Shown here: in pieces, positions 1,700-8,962 of the stretch | How positions within the stretch are numbered: position 1 is the first letter of the stretch | Layout of the letters: the number at the start of each line of letters is the position of its first letter | NCBI GenBank assembly: GCA_001899235.1 | Contig: MKVR01000050.1 | Coordinates: 116,735 to 180,734 of the forward strand | Length of the DNA: 64,000 nucleotides | From: Nitrosospira sp. 56-18 | Lineage (GTDB): Bacteria; Pseudomonadota; Gammaproteobacteria; Burkholderiales; Nitrosomonadaceae | Direction of reading: 5' to 3' | Notes under the pieces: model-generated | Databases searched by the model: none | Told to the model about the DNA's origin: nothing | What the model saw: the letters and a program-made list of their open reading frames with translations, nothing else | Made by a program: the position numbers and the translations under genes

Positions 1700-2506
1700 T
1701 CAGGTAAATTGCGTGGTTATGGTTCTATTCCTGCCTGAGCCAGCCCTTGATGGCATTATCGTCCCGCTTGTCCCGCGAAAATTGGGGATCTGGCTTGCAG
1801 GCGCCTTTGGCAACAACCGGGTATATTCCCTTTTTAGCACTTCATAACCATCGCTTACGCGGTCTTCCAGCAACTTGCGGTTCACCACCGTGATATGGCC
1901 GCGCCGGTACTGAATCGCCCCCGCCGCCTGAAGTGTTTGCGCAGCCTGAGTCACGCTTTCGCGGCGCACTCCAAGCATACTGGCAACCATTTCATGCGTC
2001 ATCGGCAAAGAACCCCCGGATAACCGGTCCAGGCTCATCAACAGGAAACGGCATAATTGCTGTTCAATGGTCTGGCGATGTTCAACTGCGCACTGCTCTG
2101 TCTGCAGAAGCAGCGCCTGGCTGAAGCGCAGCAGCAGTTGCTGCAAGGCTCCGCCGGATTCAAATTCCTTTTTAAGGATGTTCGACTTGATACGGTAGCT
2201 GTAGCCAGGGCTTTGTACCAGCACGGTGGCAGGCGTACGGTCGCAGCCTAGAAGCAAAAACAGCCCGGTTACTCCTTCATTGCCGATCATCGACACTTGC
2301 CGGGATATCCCGGACTCCAATTCGTACATCCGCGCAATGATGCAGGTGGTGGGGAAATACAGGTGGCTGATACGGGAATTGGGTTCATAAATGACATGAC
2401 CCAGCGGTAATTCGACCAATTCGAGAAAAGGAAGCAGATTGGTGTACTCCTGTATAGGCAGGGCCGCAAGAATCTGATTCTGTTTGGGGCTATGCAATAT
2501 AGACAT
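1700..2506 (-). CDS. Crp/Fnr-family transcriptional regulator
   Basis: 268 residues. The first ~125 residues form a cyclic-nucleotide-binding-like beta-roll (IYEPNSRISHLYFPTTCII), followed by a dimerisation helix and a winged helix-turn-helix at about 165-215 (MTHEMVASMLGVRRESVTQAA). There is no N-terminal cysteine cluster, so it is not an oxygen-sensing FNR. The PRPP/phosphate cassette of true cAMP binders is not obvious either, so the effector is unknown. A Ser/Arg-rich tail of about 35 residues follows the HTH. AGAGGAA sits just before the ATG. Upstream (2591-2606) is a sigma-54-like element identical to the one upstream of the PEP-CTERM gene, an unusual arrangement for this family and a possible link between the two genes. 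Confidence 0.88.
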   Translation of the reverse strand: MSILHSPKQNQILAALPIQEYTNLLPFLELVELPLGHVIYEPNSRISHLYFPTTCIIARMYELESGISRQVSMIGNEGVTGLFLLLGCDRTPATVLVQSPGYSYRIKSNILKKEFESGGALQQLLLRFSQALLLQTEQCAVEHRQTIEQQLCRFLLMSLDRLSGGSLPMTHEMVASMLGVRRESVTQAAQTLQAAGAIQYRRGHITVVNRKLLEDRVSDGYEVLKREYTRLLPKAPASQIPNFRGTSGTIMPSRAGSGRNRTITTQFT

Positions 2507-2854
2507 GGAAGTTTCCTCTGGAATAACGATAGGGTTAAGGCTACCGGACTTCGTATCAACCTCAGGCAGTATCCTTTTACTTGTCTATCCAGCAATAATC
2601 ATGCCAAAATTATTTATCTTTTTATTTCATAAGGATAGCTATAAATTTAAAAGGGCATCCAGTTACCGAATTGAGGCACAAACTCAAACTCTTCCGCTAA
2701 TAGATTGAAAAATAAGGAGAATATACCGTCTCCATCTGACGACAATCCAGCCTAGACTTCGACACAATGCGAGCAGATGTTCTATCTGAGCTCTATCTGA
2801 CTTTATAGGGTTTGAAGAAGGTGACTGCAATCCCGTAAAAGTGGCGGGAAGAGC
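2507..2854. other. Intergenic region upstream of the Crp/Fnr-family gene
   Basis: About 350 bases. The part from 2590 to 2665 is strikingly AT-rich and contains the sigma-54-like element at 2591-2606. The rest separates the regulator from the diguanylate cyclase gene; no ORF with coding character is seen. Confidence 0.6.
2591..2606 (-). promoter_or_regulatory. Sigma-54-type -24/-12 promoter element, copy 1
   Basis: On the minus strand the sequence is TGGCATGATTATTGCT, against the RpoN consensus TGGCACGRNNNTTGCW: one mismatch (C to T) and the exact GG-N10-GC spacing. It points at the Crp/Fnr-family gene, whose start is 84 bases further on, which would leave a leader of about 70 bases. The same 16 bases recur at 8728-8743. 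Confidence 0.6.
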
Positions 2855-3754
2855 TCAACATGAGACTCTGACGCAATTGCGTCCACCGCTCTTGGCCTGG
2901 TACATTGCCTTGTCCGCAGACTGGATGAGATCGGTAAAATTCAGGCCGGATCCTGGAACCGCGGTTGCAACTCCAACACTAATGGTTGCCTGCAGTTCAC
3001 CTGATTCCGTTTGTATCAGGCCATCGGCTATCGCGGCCCTTACTCGTTCTGCTACGACGATCGCCCCGTTGCGGTCGCATTCCGGCAGAACAATCATTAA
3101 CTCTTCCCCACCAAACCGTCCGCAGCCATCATAGGGTCTTACCGCATGGGTCATACGCTCGGCCACGTCCCGCAGGACTGCATCCCCTACCAGGTGCCCG
3201 TGGCTGTCATTTATCTTCTTGAAATGGTCTATATCGGCAAAAATAAGGGAAATACAATAATTTCCCCGTTCCTTGCGGGCCATTTCATTTTGCAGGATAT
3301 CAATTATCGTACCCCTGTTATATAAACCGGTAAGCGCATCCCGCGTGGCTTTTGCCCGCAATTCCTGTTCGAGGTTACTAATACGCCGACCCGTCCGGAG
3401 CCTTGCCTGCAGTTCTTCGATGCTGTAAGGCTTGCTGATAAAGTCGTCCGCCCCGGCATCCATGGCCTCCACGGCAGATTCCGGTCCTTGCCGCGAAGTA
3501 AGAAGGATCAGATAAATATATCGATCTCTCACGCTATCGCGAAGCTGTCTGCATACCGTTACCCCATCCATTTCCGGCATCATCCAGTCCAGGGTCGCCA
3601 GCTGGGGCCCTGTGGCCTGTTTAAGCCTATTGAAAGCTGCGGTTCCATCCGTCACCGTCTCCACTTCATATCCGCTGTCTTTCAATGTCTCCTGCAGAAA
3701 TAGCAGGGATACAGGGTCATCATCCGCGATCAGTACTTTCAATTGAATCTCCAT
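2855..3754 (-). CDS. Response regulator with GGDEF domain (PleD-type diguanylate cyclase)
   Basis: 299 residues. Residues 1-120 are a receiver domain: acidic pocket IADDD near residue 10 and phospho-acceptor Asp in TLDWMMPEMDG. Residues ~135-299 are a GGDEF domain with DALTGLYNRG, the metal/substrate segment FADIDHFKKINDSHGH, and active-site motif RFGGEEL. RPYD lies five residues before GGEEL, matching the RxxD inhibitory site that binds c-di-GMP, so the enzyme is probably product-inhibited. It should make c-di-GMP from GTP when phosphorylated. Its start overlaps the end of the hybrid kinase gene by 35 bases, which strongly suggests that the kinase and this protein form one signalling pathway. 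Confidence 0.93.
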   Translation of the reverse strand: MEIQLKVLIADDDPVSLLFLQETLKDSGYEVETVTDGTAAFNRLKQATGPQLATLDWMMPEMDGVTVCRQLRDSVRDRYIYLILLTSRQGPESAVEAMDAGADDFISKPYSIEELQARLRTGRRISNLEQELRAKATRDALTGLYNRGTIIDILQNEMARKERGNYCISLIFADIDHFKKINDSHGHLVGDAVLRDVAERMTHAVRPYDGCGRFGGEELMIVLPECDRNGAIVVAERVRAAIADGLIQTESGELQATISVGVATAVPGSGLNFTDLIQSADKAMYQAKSGGRNCVRVSC

Positions 3755-6700
3755 TGATGAAGGCTTCCAGTTCAGCCGTCAATCCCTCCGCAAGTGCCCG
3801 GAGCCCGTCAAAGCAGGCGTCCACACCATCGATTTCGCCCGCTTTAGCGATCTGCTCCAGTTTTGCGGCGGCATCAGCCACCGGCTGGGCGCTAATAGTG
3901 CTGGCCGCGCCTTTAAGGCGATGGGCGGAACGTGCCACCAGCTCCAGGTCACCAGTGCCCGCGGCTTCCCGGATATCAGCCAGCGTAAGGGGAATTTCCT
4001 GCAAAAAAACGCGAACGAGCCGGATCAGCAATGGCTGTTTGCCGTTAACCCGTTTTAAAGCAGCTTCCGGATTGAATCCCTGGATTGCAAGCGATGTTTC
4101 TTCTGAGCTATTTGCACCCCCAGGTTGAATACCGGACGTTTCTTCCGATTCCAGAAGGCGCAGCAATAACTCCGGGTCGATGGGTTTCGGAATATAGTCG
4201 TCCATTCCCGCAGCAAGGCAACGTTCCCGATCTTCCTTCATCGCAGCGGCAGTAAGCGCGATGATGCGGACATGCTTTCCCCCCGCATTTTTCTCGCGTT
4301 TACGAATCTCGACCGTGGCCTGATAGCCATCCATGCGGGGCATTTGTCCGTCCATCAGGATGACGTCGAACTGCTGCTCATCCAGCATCCTCATGGCTTC
4401 GATTCCATCACCAGCAGTAGCTGAGGAATGGCCCCGGTTTCGCAAGATTTCTTCCACCACTTTCTGATTGATCAAATTATCCTCCGCTATCAACACATTC
4501 AGGGTGCGCGAGGGCTGGGGCCTGCTCGCGTATCCACTTGAAACGATAGGGATACCATCATCTGTCCTGCTCATGGCAACCATGATCGCGTTAAACAGTT
4601 CCGAGGACTTGACAGGTTTTCTCAGGTAACTGGCTATGCCTATTTCCTTATAACGTTTGATTTCATCGTAAGCATCGTTCGAAGAAAGCATCATGATCGT
4701 AGTTCCGGCCAATGCCTGAATATGGCTGACAAGCTCGATCAACTGAAAACCATCGCACTCGGGCATCCGCGAGTCCAGCAATACCAGCGGGTATGTCTTA
4801 CCAAGCGCTGCGGCGTTCAATAACTCCGCCAACGCTTCCGTGCTATTCGTCGCAAGCACCGGCTGCATGGACCAGCTCAAAAGAATCTCTTCAAGAATCA
4901 ATCGGTTTGTGCTGTTGTCCTCGACAACCAGAACCGGCACATTCTTTAGATCCTGCCGGAGTAGGATTTCCGGCTGACGATCCGGAACCGCAAACTTTGC
5001 CGTGAAGTAAAATGTCGTTCCTTTTCCTAGCTCACTTTCAACCCCGACCGATCCACGCATTAACTTGACAAGCTGGGACACGATCGTCAGCCCCAGGCCG
5101 GTCCCTCCATATTTTCGGGTGGTCGAACTGTCGCCCTGCGCAAAGGCATCGAAGATATAGACTTGCTGTTCGGCGGTCATTCCAATCCCGGTATCGGTGA
5201 TATTGAAACGAAGCAGGACATGCTTTGTCGCTGCCTCCTCCAGAGACTCCTGCATAACCCGTAATACCACTTCCCCCTGTTTCGTAAACTTCAGTGCGTT
5301 GCCCGTCAAATTAACGATAATTTGTGCAAGGCGGCCAGGATCGCCTTGCAAAAGAAGCGGCACTTCCGGAGCAACCCGATAAGCCAGCTCTATTCCTTTC
5401 TCATTGGCGGCTGCGGAAAATGCTTTTAACGTGTTTCCAACCAACTCTCGCAAATCGAACTCGATATCATCGAGCTCGAGCTTGTTTGCTTCCATCTTGG
5501 AAAAATCGAGAATGTCGTTGAGAAGCCGTAGCAATGAATCTGCTGAGGATTTTATCAAGGTCATGAACTCCTGTTGCTGGGAAGACAACGGGGTTTTAAG
5601 CATGAGATCGGTAAGGCCGATGACGCCGTTCATGGGTGTGCGAATTTCATGGCTCATGTTTGCCAGAAACGAACTTTTCGCGGTGGTGGCAGCCTCGGCA
5701 GCCTCCTTGGCCCGGTGCAATTCCCTCTCCCGTTGTTTTCGCTCGGTGATATCGCGCAGGAATGCGCCGAACTCATGAGTCTCTCCGCCACTTATCAGCG
5801 AGACGCTGAATTCGATCGGAAGCTCATGGCCGACGCGGTTGCGAGCGGTTAGCTCGATTCTGCGTATGGTGGTGGGAATATCTCCGCCAGTTCCGAGGCG
5901 GTTAACCGTGTCAAAGTACAACGCCCGGCTGGAAGGAGCGATAATCAATTCTTCAAATGACTGTCCCCGGGCTTCTTCGAAAGACCAGCCAAAGGTTGCT
6001 TGCGCCTGCCGATTCCAATCGATGATATTACCGGTACCGTCCATACCAACGAATGCGTCATGCGCTGTCGCCACAATTTGCCTCGTTCGCTCTTCGCTGG
6101 CCCGAAGGGCTTCGTTGGCCCGTTTTGTCTCCGATACATCGTGCGCGACGCAAAATATCTGCCGACGGTCCTTTGCCCATCTGGCCGACCACAGGAGATG
6201 CACAACCGAACCATCTTTGTGAATGTAGCGATTACCGAAATCCCGCGTGGAATGTCCGCTCATGACCTCCGCTGCGAAGTGCCGACTTCGGTCGATATCG
6301 TCTGGATGCACCAACTCAAGATAAGGCCGCCCGGCAAGCTCATCCGCAGTGTAGCCCCAGGTAGCCTCGCAAGCACGACTTACATTGACAAAACATCCGG
6401 ATTCATCAATTGAGCAGATAACATCCAGCGAATTATCCATCATGTCTCTATTCTCTCTGGCCGCTTTTCCAGTCTGGACAATGGATCTGGACAACCCTTG
6501 CCCGATATAAGCAGCTACGCCAAGCCCAAGGCAGCCAAATAGAACAATAGTGAGACGGGAAATAGTCTGCGCCTGCGCGGTTGCTTCATCGGCTTGCTTG
6601 CTGAAATCGCTTACTTCGCGAGATGAAAGACTGACTGCCTCCTTGATGGCCGCCATGTTTTCGGCTTGAGCGGGCAGGTATTTCTGCCAGTAAATCTTTT

Positions 6701-7154
6701 GCGCCGCGCGTGGATTCCGTGTCGCCAAGTGCAAAACCTGTTCTTTTATGGGCAGAATTACTTGTCGATCATGCTCTACCAATTGCCTCAGCATCGCATT
6801 CAACTCTTTGTTTGCGGTGGCTGCTATTGCCGCATCCAGATTTACGATCGCATGCTCATGAAGCTTTTCCTCCTGCTGCTTTTTCTCGTTGAATGCATCC
6901 TTGTCCGCGGGATCAAGCAAAAGGTCAGTAAGCTGGTTTGCCGCTTCCATGAAAGCAACCTGGGCTTCCCGTATAAGAACGCGTGTCCGGTTCAGCAGCA
7001 ATGTCTCTGCTGCTGCGGCATCCACTCTCTGCTGCAGATTCTGGTGAAGAAACAGATTTGTTCCCAGCCCGAGCGCAAGCAGCAAAACAAAGCCACTCGC
7101 AGCGACCACAGTGAAACGCTTATATACAATGGGTTTCAAGAAATCGACGGACAT
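3720..7154 (-). CDS. Hybrid sensor histidine kinase with two PAS, two receiver domains and Hpt
   Basis: 1144 residues. Order: membrane helix at ~14-34, periplasmic four-helix-bundle-like sensor to ~200, second helix ([15 protein letters not shown]), PAS at ~240-345, second PAS at ~360-480, HisKA with [14 protein letters not shown], HATPase with [13 protein letters not shown], receiver 1 (Asp in [13 protein letters not shown]), receiver 2 (Asp in [13 protein letters not shown]) and a C-terminal Hpt with [10 protein letters not shown]. This is a complete His-Asp-His-Asp phosphorelay in one inner-membrane protein; the final acceptor may be the overlapping diguanylate cyclase. The periplasmic signal is unknown. 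The ATG at 7154 has a poor ribosome site, so the exact start is less certain than the domains. Confidence 0.92.
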
Positions 7155-7256
7155 ATGGCAATTAGGCTGGCCGTGAATCGCGACGCCGCAGGGGTGACCC
7201 GTGAAGAGATGCGTTTTATTTCTTGTGAGCGCGCCTTAGCGCTTGAACAGGTCTTT

Positions 7257-7365
7257 AAACCTAAATCCGTTAGTTGATCGCTCTTGGTTTAGGACCATGA
7301 TCCACAAGGATTCTAACGATACTCGACGTTCATCTGCGCGGTGAGTTCGCTACAAGGCCTGACGT
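7257..7365 (+). repeat. Decayed copy of MITE-like family B
   Basis: Starts AAACCTAAATCCG and continues with TTGATCGCTC, CCATGATCCACAA, ACTCGAC and GTTCGC in the same order as the intact element at 38549-38789 (AAACCTAAATCCGGCAGTTG, then CCATGATCCACAAAGCC). The right inverted-repeat end is not recognisable, so this is a truncated remnant. Confidence 0.6.
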
Positions 7366-7399
7366 GCAAGAGTGAGCGAAGCCAATGGAAAACCAAACC

Positions 7400-7428
7400 A
7401 AGGGCATTGACAGCTCGTCAATGCCCTT
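7400..7428. repeat. Perfect 12-bp stem hairpin
   Basis: AAGGGCATTGAC and GTCAATGCCCTT with a 5-base loop (AGCTC). No T tract follows on either strand, so it is not clearly a terminator. It sits at the edge of the decayed family B element. Confidence 0.6.
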
Positions 7429-7481
7429 GATAACGGTGCGCAATTTATGGTGAATCGACAATTCACTGCATAAAAACCTCC

Positions 7482-7563
7482 GTCATTCCGGACGCCGCAT
7501 CAGCGGCGAGCCGGAATCCGGAGCTTTTCAAGCTACTGGATTTCCGCTTTCGTGGAAATGACC
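7482..7563. repeat. REP-like composite palindrome
   Basis: Outer arms GTCATTCC and GGAAATGAC enclose a nested hairpin: ATTCCGG / CCGGAAT with inner GCCGC / GCGGC. Sequences of this kind are widely dispersed between genes in proteobacteria. Only one copy was noticed in the window. Confidence 0.5.
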
Positions 7564-7938
7564 CAAGTATTTATTCAACGCATTTCCGGCTCAGGATACG
7601 AGTCGGACAAATAAATCAGCCTCCAGGAGAACAAGCCTCATTAAACATCAAAAGGGACAAGGAAAGTACCTGTAAGAAATTACAGGTGGGCGAATGCATT
7701 TATCCATAAAACATCATTGGTTGTTTTTATTCTTTTGCGCTGCGGCCCTTCTGACACGTATTGCGTGATTGTTGCGTCTGATCCAGGCAAGCACGGGCGC
7801 GAGCCACCTATGCGAATCTGGCGGATTCATCCAAATTCTCTGGAGCTGCTGAATGTTTTGAAGTGGCGCTGGGAAGGCTGGGGTTGAACCCTGCAGATCG
7901 GCCCAAGGTATCGATATTCAAGACCAGCTGCGGGGGGA

Positions 7939-7950
7939 GGGGGGGGGGGG
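7939..7950. repeat. G12 homopolymer tract
   Basis: Twelve consecutive G preceded by a G6 run one base away, 30 bases beyond the PEP-CTERM gene terminator. Long G tracts are prone to slippage, but this one is not inside or just before an identifiable gene. Confidence 0.7.
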
Positions 7951-7979
7951 AGATCTTTTTGGGAGCTTGGGTGGAAGTC

Positions 7980-8004
7980 TAAAAAATACCCGCTCCAGGC
8001 GGGT
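7980..8004 (-). terminator. Intrinsic terminator of the PEP-CTERM gene
   Basis: On the minus strand ACCCGC, a 5-base loop and GCGGGT are followed by ATTTTTT, about 28 bases after the stop codon. A textbook rho-independent terminator. Confidence 0.85.
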
Positions 8005-8031
8005 TGATTCATGCTCGTCTTTTTTAACCAG

Positions 8032-8676
8032 TCAATTTCCAGCGCTGCGCATTCTCCATCCTAAAAGACCTAGACCGGCTATCAGCATGGCGTAAGTTTC
8101 GGGTTCTGGAACAGGAGACGGATTACCTACACTGGCGACAATGGTGAAACTAAACCAATCGCGGACACGGAAGGGGTCACCCGTGTATTTAGTTCCAGTC
8201 ATAGACAGCGTGGTACCGTCAAACGTACCGGAAAAGTTATCTATCCCACCCATTGATAACCCTGTGCAACTGGTCATTGGCGATAAGATGAAGCAGGGAT
8301 CATTGCTTGCAATGAAATCCTCCCCATTCATCATGAGACCGGGATAGGTAGGGAGCGAAAAGCCCAGTGCGGCTGCGCCCCCGCTATCGACTGCCAACGT
8401 GTCAAACTGAATTATCTGGCGATTAAGCCATACAGGGGTATCACGAATGACGTTGAAACTGCCTGACAGGATAAAGATCTGCGGATCAGGCGAGGGAATG
8501 CAAACGCCCTGGAGGTCACAAATGACAACAACGGAGCTCTGATCGTAAGTTACCGAACTCTGGCTGGAGTCGATGTTGACGACGACCGCGTGTGCGCTGG
8601 TGGCAACGGCAATCAGCACCATGGCCATAAGGGTGAGCACGACCGCATTCCGACAGAATCGAATAGTTAAGTTCAT
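8032..8676 (-). CDS. PEP-CTERM sorting-domain protein
   Basis: 214 residues. It has an N-terminal signal peptide (VVLTLMAMVLIAVATSAHA), a beta-rich secreted body with no recognised catalytic motif, and a C-terminal sorting signal: VPEPETYAMLIAGLGLLGW followed by the basic tail RMRSAGN. In the PEP-CTERM system an exosortase (EpsH) recognises this tail and processes the protein for export and surface or matrix display. No exosortase lies in the window. A sigma-54-type element lies 52 bases upstream and an intrinsic terminator follows directly, so it appears to be a single-gene unit. Its specific role is unknown; family members are often linked to exopolysaccharide matrix and flocs. Confidence 0.93.
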   Translation of the reverse strand: MNLTIRFCRNAVVLTLMAMVLIAVATSAHAVVVNIDSSQSSVTYDQSSVVVICDLQGVCIPSPDPQIFILSGSFNVIRDTPVWLNRQIIQFDTLAVDSGGAAALGFSLPTYPGLMMNGEDFIASNDPCFILSPMTSCTGLSMGGIDNFSGTFDGTTLSMTGTKYTGDPFRVRDWFSFTIVASVGNPSPVPEPETYAMLIAGLGLLGWRMRSAGN

Positions 8677-8727
8677 TATTAGGAAGGATCGCTTATGGGT
8701 GAGCCATGGCTAGATGCTGCAGAAAAA

Positions 8728-8743
8728 AGCAATAATCATGCCA
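8728..8743 (-). promoter_or_regulatory. Sigma-54-type -24/-12 promoter element, copy 2
   Basis: TGGCATGATTATTGCT on the minus strand, identical base for base to the element at 2591-2606 and one mismatch from the RpoN consensus. The GC of the -12 box lies 53 bases before the PEP-CTERM start, giving a leader of about 40 bases. RpoN control of PEP-CTERM genes is known for the PrsK/PrsR system, which is not encoded in this window. Confidence 0.7.
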
Positions 8744-8962
8744 TAGTTCATACATCCCATGGATAGGCAATTTACGGGCTGTTCACGTTTCATAGGCAAC
8801 GATTACGCTTGGTTACATGTAAAGAATTTCGACGTTGCAGAAGTGAAAACGGAACCTAAACTTCGTTACGCCCCCCCCCCGAGTGCCCAATAGCAGAGGC
8901 GATATTCCGTCTGTAAGCGCCCCTTGACTCTCAGGCAAAGTTGCCTCCCAGTTATCCAAAAA

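Follow-up and report, generated by a model that had tools for sequence, protein, structure and literature searches.

Two minus-strand genes of Nitrosospira sp. 56-18, encoding a Crp/Fnr-type regulator (1700..2506) and a PEP-CTERM protein (8032..8676), are preceded by the same 16-nt element, TGGCATGATTATTGCT, which raises the question whether both belong to one regulon. They are located in a stretch of 64,000 nucleotides, referred to here as the window. Sigma-54 is an unusual RNA-polymerase subunit, and the specificity of its promoters is set by an upstream enhancer. The enhancers of the two promoters differ, so that the inference of a common regulon from the common core fails. The sequence points, with good probability, to one sigma factor serving two regulons that differ in their activator. 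As a general warning, evidence for a common regulon comes from the enhancer, and not from an identical -24/-12 element.

An exact search found TGGCATGATTATTGCT on the minus strand at 2591..2606, 84 nt before the ATG of the Crp/Fnr gene, and at 8728..8743, 51 nt before that of the PEP-CTERM gene, in agreement with the positions given in an earlier note on this DNA. The fit to the RpoN consensus described there was also confirmed, as the element has the -24/-12 form with exact GG-N10-GC spacing and deviates at one base only, a T for the consensus C at position 6. Besides these two exact copies, the 54 contigs of the genome (3.29 Mb) contain only one copy with one mismatch (C15:119344), located upstream of another PEP-CTERM gene, and the reversed-pattern control gave 0 copies. 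Both sites are very probably genuine sigma-54 core promoters.

The identity of the two elements had been regarded as unlikely by chance. This holds for two unrelated 16-mers, but not for two strong sigma-54 cores. Based on the composition of 53 distinct sigma-54 cores found genus-wide, a random pair of cores agrees completely with P=0.0036, and 0.2-1.1 identical pairs are expected per genome for 11-25 cores. In another species, a FeeM-type acyltransferase gene has TGGCATGATTATTGCT as its promoter core too (L257), and the promoters of Crp/Fnr orthologs differ from one another in the spacer bases of the core. Given this chance rate, the additional copy and the differing spacers, the identity needs no further cause than two good sigma-54 cores, and TGGCATGATTATTGCT is a recurrent strong core, no regulon tag. 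Single core-like sites are weak evidence, because one-mismatch look-alikes of TGGCAYGNNNNNTGCT number 174 in the genome, too near the 98 of the reversed control, and enhancers are therefore needed as evidence. A strict core precedes only a minority of the 36 PEP-CTERM genes of this genome, so that the association of core and gene is insufficient on its own.

The PEP-CTERM gene encodes a protein of 214 aa with the C-terminal PVPEPETYAMLI. Upstream of proteobacterial PEP-CTERM genes, Haft et al. 2006 (PMC1569441), whose study included N. multiformis, described a sigma-54 motif 2 and, separated from it by 32-92 nt on the far side from the gene, a motif 1 with TTTACA at its end. The window gene matches this site, associated with PrsK/PrsR, without notable difference. 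Its PrsR-type enhancer, corresponding to motif 1 (CGTCGAAATTCTTTACA), is located on the minus strand at 8818..8834, separated by 74 nt from the core, which corresponds to motif 2. Both elements of this complete layout are conserved in the ortholog of a related species (G017, L243). A PrsR matrix of 17 positions was built from 15 sites of other promoters (TGTCGGAAATNTTTACA), omitting the window gene and its ortholog; its top match on both strands of the whole window is 8818..8834, with a score of 18.6 (runner-up 12.8). In the scan of 23 genomes of the genus, TTTACA combined with a core yielded 46 matches versus 1 control. The genome also encodes PrsK (907 bits) and PrsR (758 bits). This conserved layout, together with the presence of both proteins, makes it very likely that the gene is controlled by PrsR, as the earlier note had assumed. 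Similar to the window gene, the PEP-CTERM gene pepA of Aquincola tertiaricarbonis possesses a -24 (TGGCAC)/-12 promoter, which has been mapped (PMC9850573). The rpoN dependence of pepA is experimental, whereas that of the window gene is predicted from its sequence.

Two homopolymer tracts, one G-rich and one of C, lie on either side of the PEP-CTERM gene (7932-7952 and 8870-8880) and are possible spots of slippage or sequencing error. In other Nitrosospira genomes, PrsR-type promoters composed of TTTACA and the core TGGCACGAATTCTGCT are conserved at five loci (L226, L227, L241, L245 and L246). Four out of these five have a receiver-GGDEF-like gene downstream, with domains assigned partly by eye, which suggests cyclic-di-GMP signalling within the PEP-CTERM regulon. 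In the genome of strain 56-18, TTTACA abuts TGTCGTTTTTCAACGACA beside a core at C52:78844 (L162), upstream of a small secreted-protein gene adjoining a PEP-CTERM gene; dual input of PrsR and GlrR is possible at this promoter.

The Crp/Fnr-type regulator (268 aa) contains an HTH_Crp_2 domain (PF13545, E=2.6e-15), and its closest named relative is found in Nitrosospira sp. Nsp2. Its sensory part gave no match to a Pfam cyclic-nucleotide domain, and near full-length matches to Crp/Fnr-type chains were obtained in PDB with E of about 0.002-0.004. Upstream of its core no TTTACA was found, and PrsR-type motif 1 is missing, the best PrsR-matrix score of this region ranking 392nd in the window. Of the layout of Haft et al., this promoter has motif 2 only. 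Instead, a GlrR/QseF-type enhancer, TGTCGTCAGATGGAGACG, is present on the minus strand at 2727..2744, 120 nt upstream of the core. This site is imperfect (TGTC-N10-GACG, seven out of eight fixed bases) and exact in three orthologs (L115, L116, L117), which carry a perfect palindrome at the same place. The upstream alignment reads TGTCGCCAATTGGCGACA in G015 and G022, TGTCGCGAAGTAGCGACA in G001, and TGTCGTCAGATGGAGACG in the window. A fourth homolog (L118, G021) has the core and no recognisable GlrR-type enhancer. In all four homologs the core is located at an equal distance from the start (-97 to -100 in the scan). A second enhancer-like site, TGCCTCAATTCGGTAACT (2661..2678, minus strand), 66 bp promoter-proximal to the first, is weak alone and lies in register with stronger second sites of the relatives.

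A GlrR-type matrix was derived from 25 TGTC-N10-GACA sites located before non-Crp genes of the genus. The top match in the 64-kb window is 2727..2744 with 13.2, followed by a runner-up with 9.5, and no position on either strand of a 54-kb background scored above it. Because the window sequence was not selected by the exact pattern, this rank is an independent test. The inverted repeat at 2724-2744 is also positive in a weak test for terminator-like sequences.

The GlrR operator is given as TGTC-N10-GACA (PMC8745638), and the binding consensus of QseF/GlrR as TGT-N12-ACA, with IHF assisting (PMC6075780). The E. coli promoters of glmY and rpoE (PMC6075780) are alike in having such an enhancer upstream of the -24/-12 core, and glmY carries TGTCGCTTTCTGGCGACA and TGTCTCTTTTTAGCGACA, which have the form seen in Nitrosospira. 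A further likeness is the presence of IHF-like sites at some promoters of the class, clear for those of non-Crp genes. Nevertheless, three enhancers are present in E. coli, and usually two, 65-66 bp apart, in Nitrosospira.

RpoN is encoded in the genome (C20, 465 bits), along with only four full sigma-54 activators: PrsR, an AtoC/ZraR-like protein, a receiver-less NorR/PspF-like protein (C2:220105) and a GlrR-like protein. The best NCBIfam match of the last is GlrR, with 611 bits, under the equivalog cut-off of 763. With E. coli GlrR it shares 56% identity and the complete recognition-helix segment RNRTEFYKLL, from which the other three activators differ. Similar to E. coli, the gene order is a kinase (31% identical to GlrK), a small lipoprotein-like protein, too diverged for a QseG match, and then glrR. 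The presence of glrR was established in this genome alone. The glrK/glrR locus had no enhancer match of at least 9 with the GlrR-type matrix, and thus no sign of autoregulation. Taken together, the Crp/Fnr gene is probably under GlrR; binding, activation and the pairing of activators with sites are what we infer from the sequence features.

Another activator, such as the receiver-less NorR/PspF-like protein, might act on a sigma-54-dependent Crp/Fnr gene. This protein has no assigned operator here, and some second sites of Crp/Fnr promoters read TGTTGC-N6-GCAACA, not TGTCGC-N6-GCGACA. However, TGTTGC-N6-GCAACA, located upstream of many Crp/Fnr paralogs, fits TGT-N12-ACA as well, and the Nitrosospira sites match the operators of E. 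coli GlrR. The recognition helix of the NorR/PspF-like protein (KERRALGKLL) is unlike that of GlrR, which is the sole ground for its exclusion. The AtoC/ZraR-like protein has a palindrome near its own operon, as described below. A different activator is therefore considered unlikely.

The two-component operon of the AtoC/ZraR-like protein (L206:3690-8882, C2) possesses its own sigma-54 core, TGGCACGGTACTTGCA, and about 60 nt upstream the palindrome GTTGTCCG-N5-CGGACAAC. This operon is likely autoregulated.

The GlrR-type arrangement was found across Nitrosospira. In 23 genomes, TGTC-N10-GACA located 92-122 nt upstream of a core gave 32 matches versus 0 reversed-pattern controls, with a usual spacing of 115-119 nt. 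GTYGC..GCRAC with a core gave 14 matches versus 1 control, and Crp/Fnr genes were downstream in 13 of the 14. With the GlrR-type matrix, a top-scoring site was detected in 26 out of the 27 Crp/Fnr promoters of the genus that have a core, most of the 26 possessing a second site 65-66 bp closer to the promoter. Among the inspected loci, the TGTC-N10-GACA targets include thirteen FeeM-type acyltransferase genes (one tested: PF21926, E=5e-54), four epsA-like genes (one tested: TIGR03020, 278 bits), three cyanophycin-synthetase-like genes (one tested), three orthologs of the window Crp/Fnr gene and, by eye, two subtilisin-like protease genes. IHF-core matches occurred before 11 of 25 non-Crp genes versus 0.8 in shuffles; before Crp/Fnr genes there was no clear enrichment (3 of 27 versus 1.1). 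These targets differ from glmY and rpoE, the targets of GlrR/QseF in E. coli. No paper on a Nitrosospira GlrR regulon was found in the literature covered, and such a GlrR-sigma54 regulon is likely new.

PrsR could also activate both promoters, which would make the Crp/Fnr gene a member of the PEP-CTERM regulon, as the earlier note had proposed. The identical core would fit this, and so would the distance of 6 kb between the two genes on the same strand, but TGGCATGATTATTGCT occurs in the GlrR-type promoter of a different gene too, and the Crp/Fnr upstream region ranks 392nd for the PrsR-type enhancer and first for the GlrR-type. Moreover, no homolog of the window PEP-CTERM gene was found within the 17-20 kb examined around the Crp/Fnr homologs of G015, G022, G001 and G021, three of which keep the GlrR-type site. 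A TonB-receptor gene stays nearby in L115-L117. The proposed membership in a shared regulon is not supported, and PrsR control of both genes is very unlikely. A looser link of the Crp/Fnr gene to exopolysaccharide is nonetheless possible, since GlrR-type promoters precede epsA, encoding an XrtB/PEP-CTERM-associated regulator, in several other Nitrosospira species.

The descent of the Crp/Fnr promoter was analysed with a protein tree of 51 Crp/Fnr homologs. In one Nitrosospira clade all 22 members have the core, while in the clade of the window gene, with 13 members, the core is present in five and missing in eight. No sigma-54 core was found at the homologs outside the genus (L069, L070 and L072-L076). 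The presence of the core on the tree needs 4 changes versus 17 in shuffles. From this distribution, the Crp/Fnr promoter appears to be an old feature of the subfamily in this genus that some members have lost, and not one taken over from the PEP-CTERM neighbour. That the Crp/Fnr element arose by chance or has decayed, the gene being transcribed from elsewhere, including by read-through from upstream histidine kinase/GGDEF genes, is very unlikely, as the loss in eight clade members and the many look-alikes of TGGCAYGNNNNNTGCT are outweighed by the exact GG-N10-GC match and by four homologs with the core at equal distance, three of them with the enhancer in place.

For two regulons under one sigma factor, the following mechanism is proposed. 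PrsR, the known regulator of PEP-CTERM genes, would bind at 8818-8834 and switch on the PEP-CTERM gene. The GlrK-like kinase would phosphorylate GlrR (QseF), which would bind at 2727-2744 and probably also at the weak site 2661-2678. Bound GlrR would loop to the RpoN-polymerase at 2591-2606 and switch on the Crp/Fnr gene, whose product would act as a second-tier regulator. The Crp/Fnr subfamily has several copies per genome, many with the stereotyped double-enhancer promoter. There is about an even chance that a previously undescribed GlrK/GlrR-sigma54 cascade directly drives this expanded subfamily, the FeeM-type N-acyltransferase, EpsA and cyanophycin synthetase. If so, an envelope sensor would be tied to decisions on matrix, lipid and nitrogen storage in soil ammonia oxidisers, the regulation of which is little known. 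Two putative sigma-54 regulons, alike at the core promoter, are hereby separated, and a concrete, testable GlrR regulon is predicted beyond enteric bacteria.

Further palindromes were observed in the genus. At L225 (G014 C250) a Crp-type palindrome is accompanied by a core, and no Crp/Fnr gene was found downstream. Two near-identical palindromes, TGTCTCC[GC]GTTGGAGACA, are present at L205:2996-3013 and L083:1995-2012, where no core was seen beside them; these are perhaps terminators or other operators.
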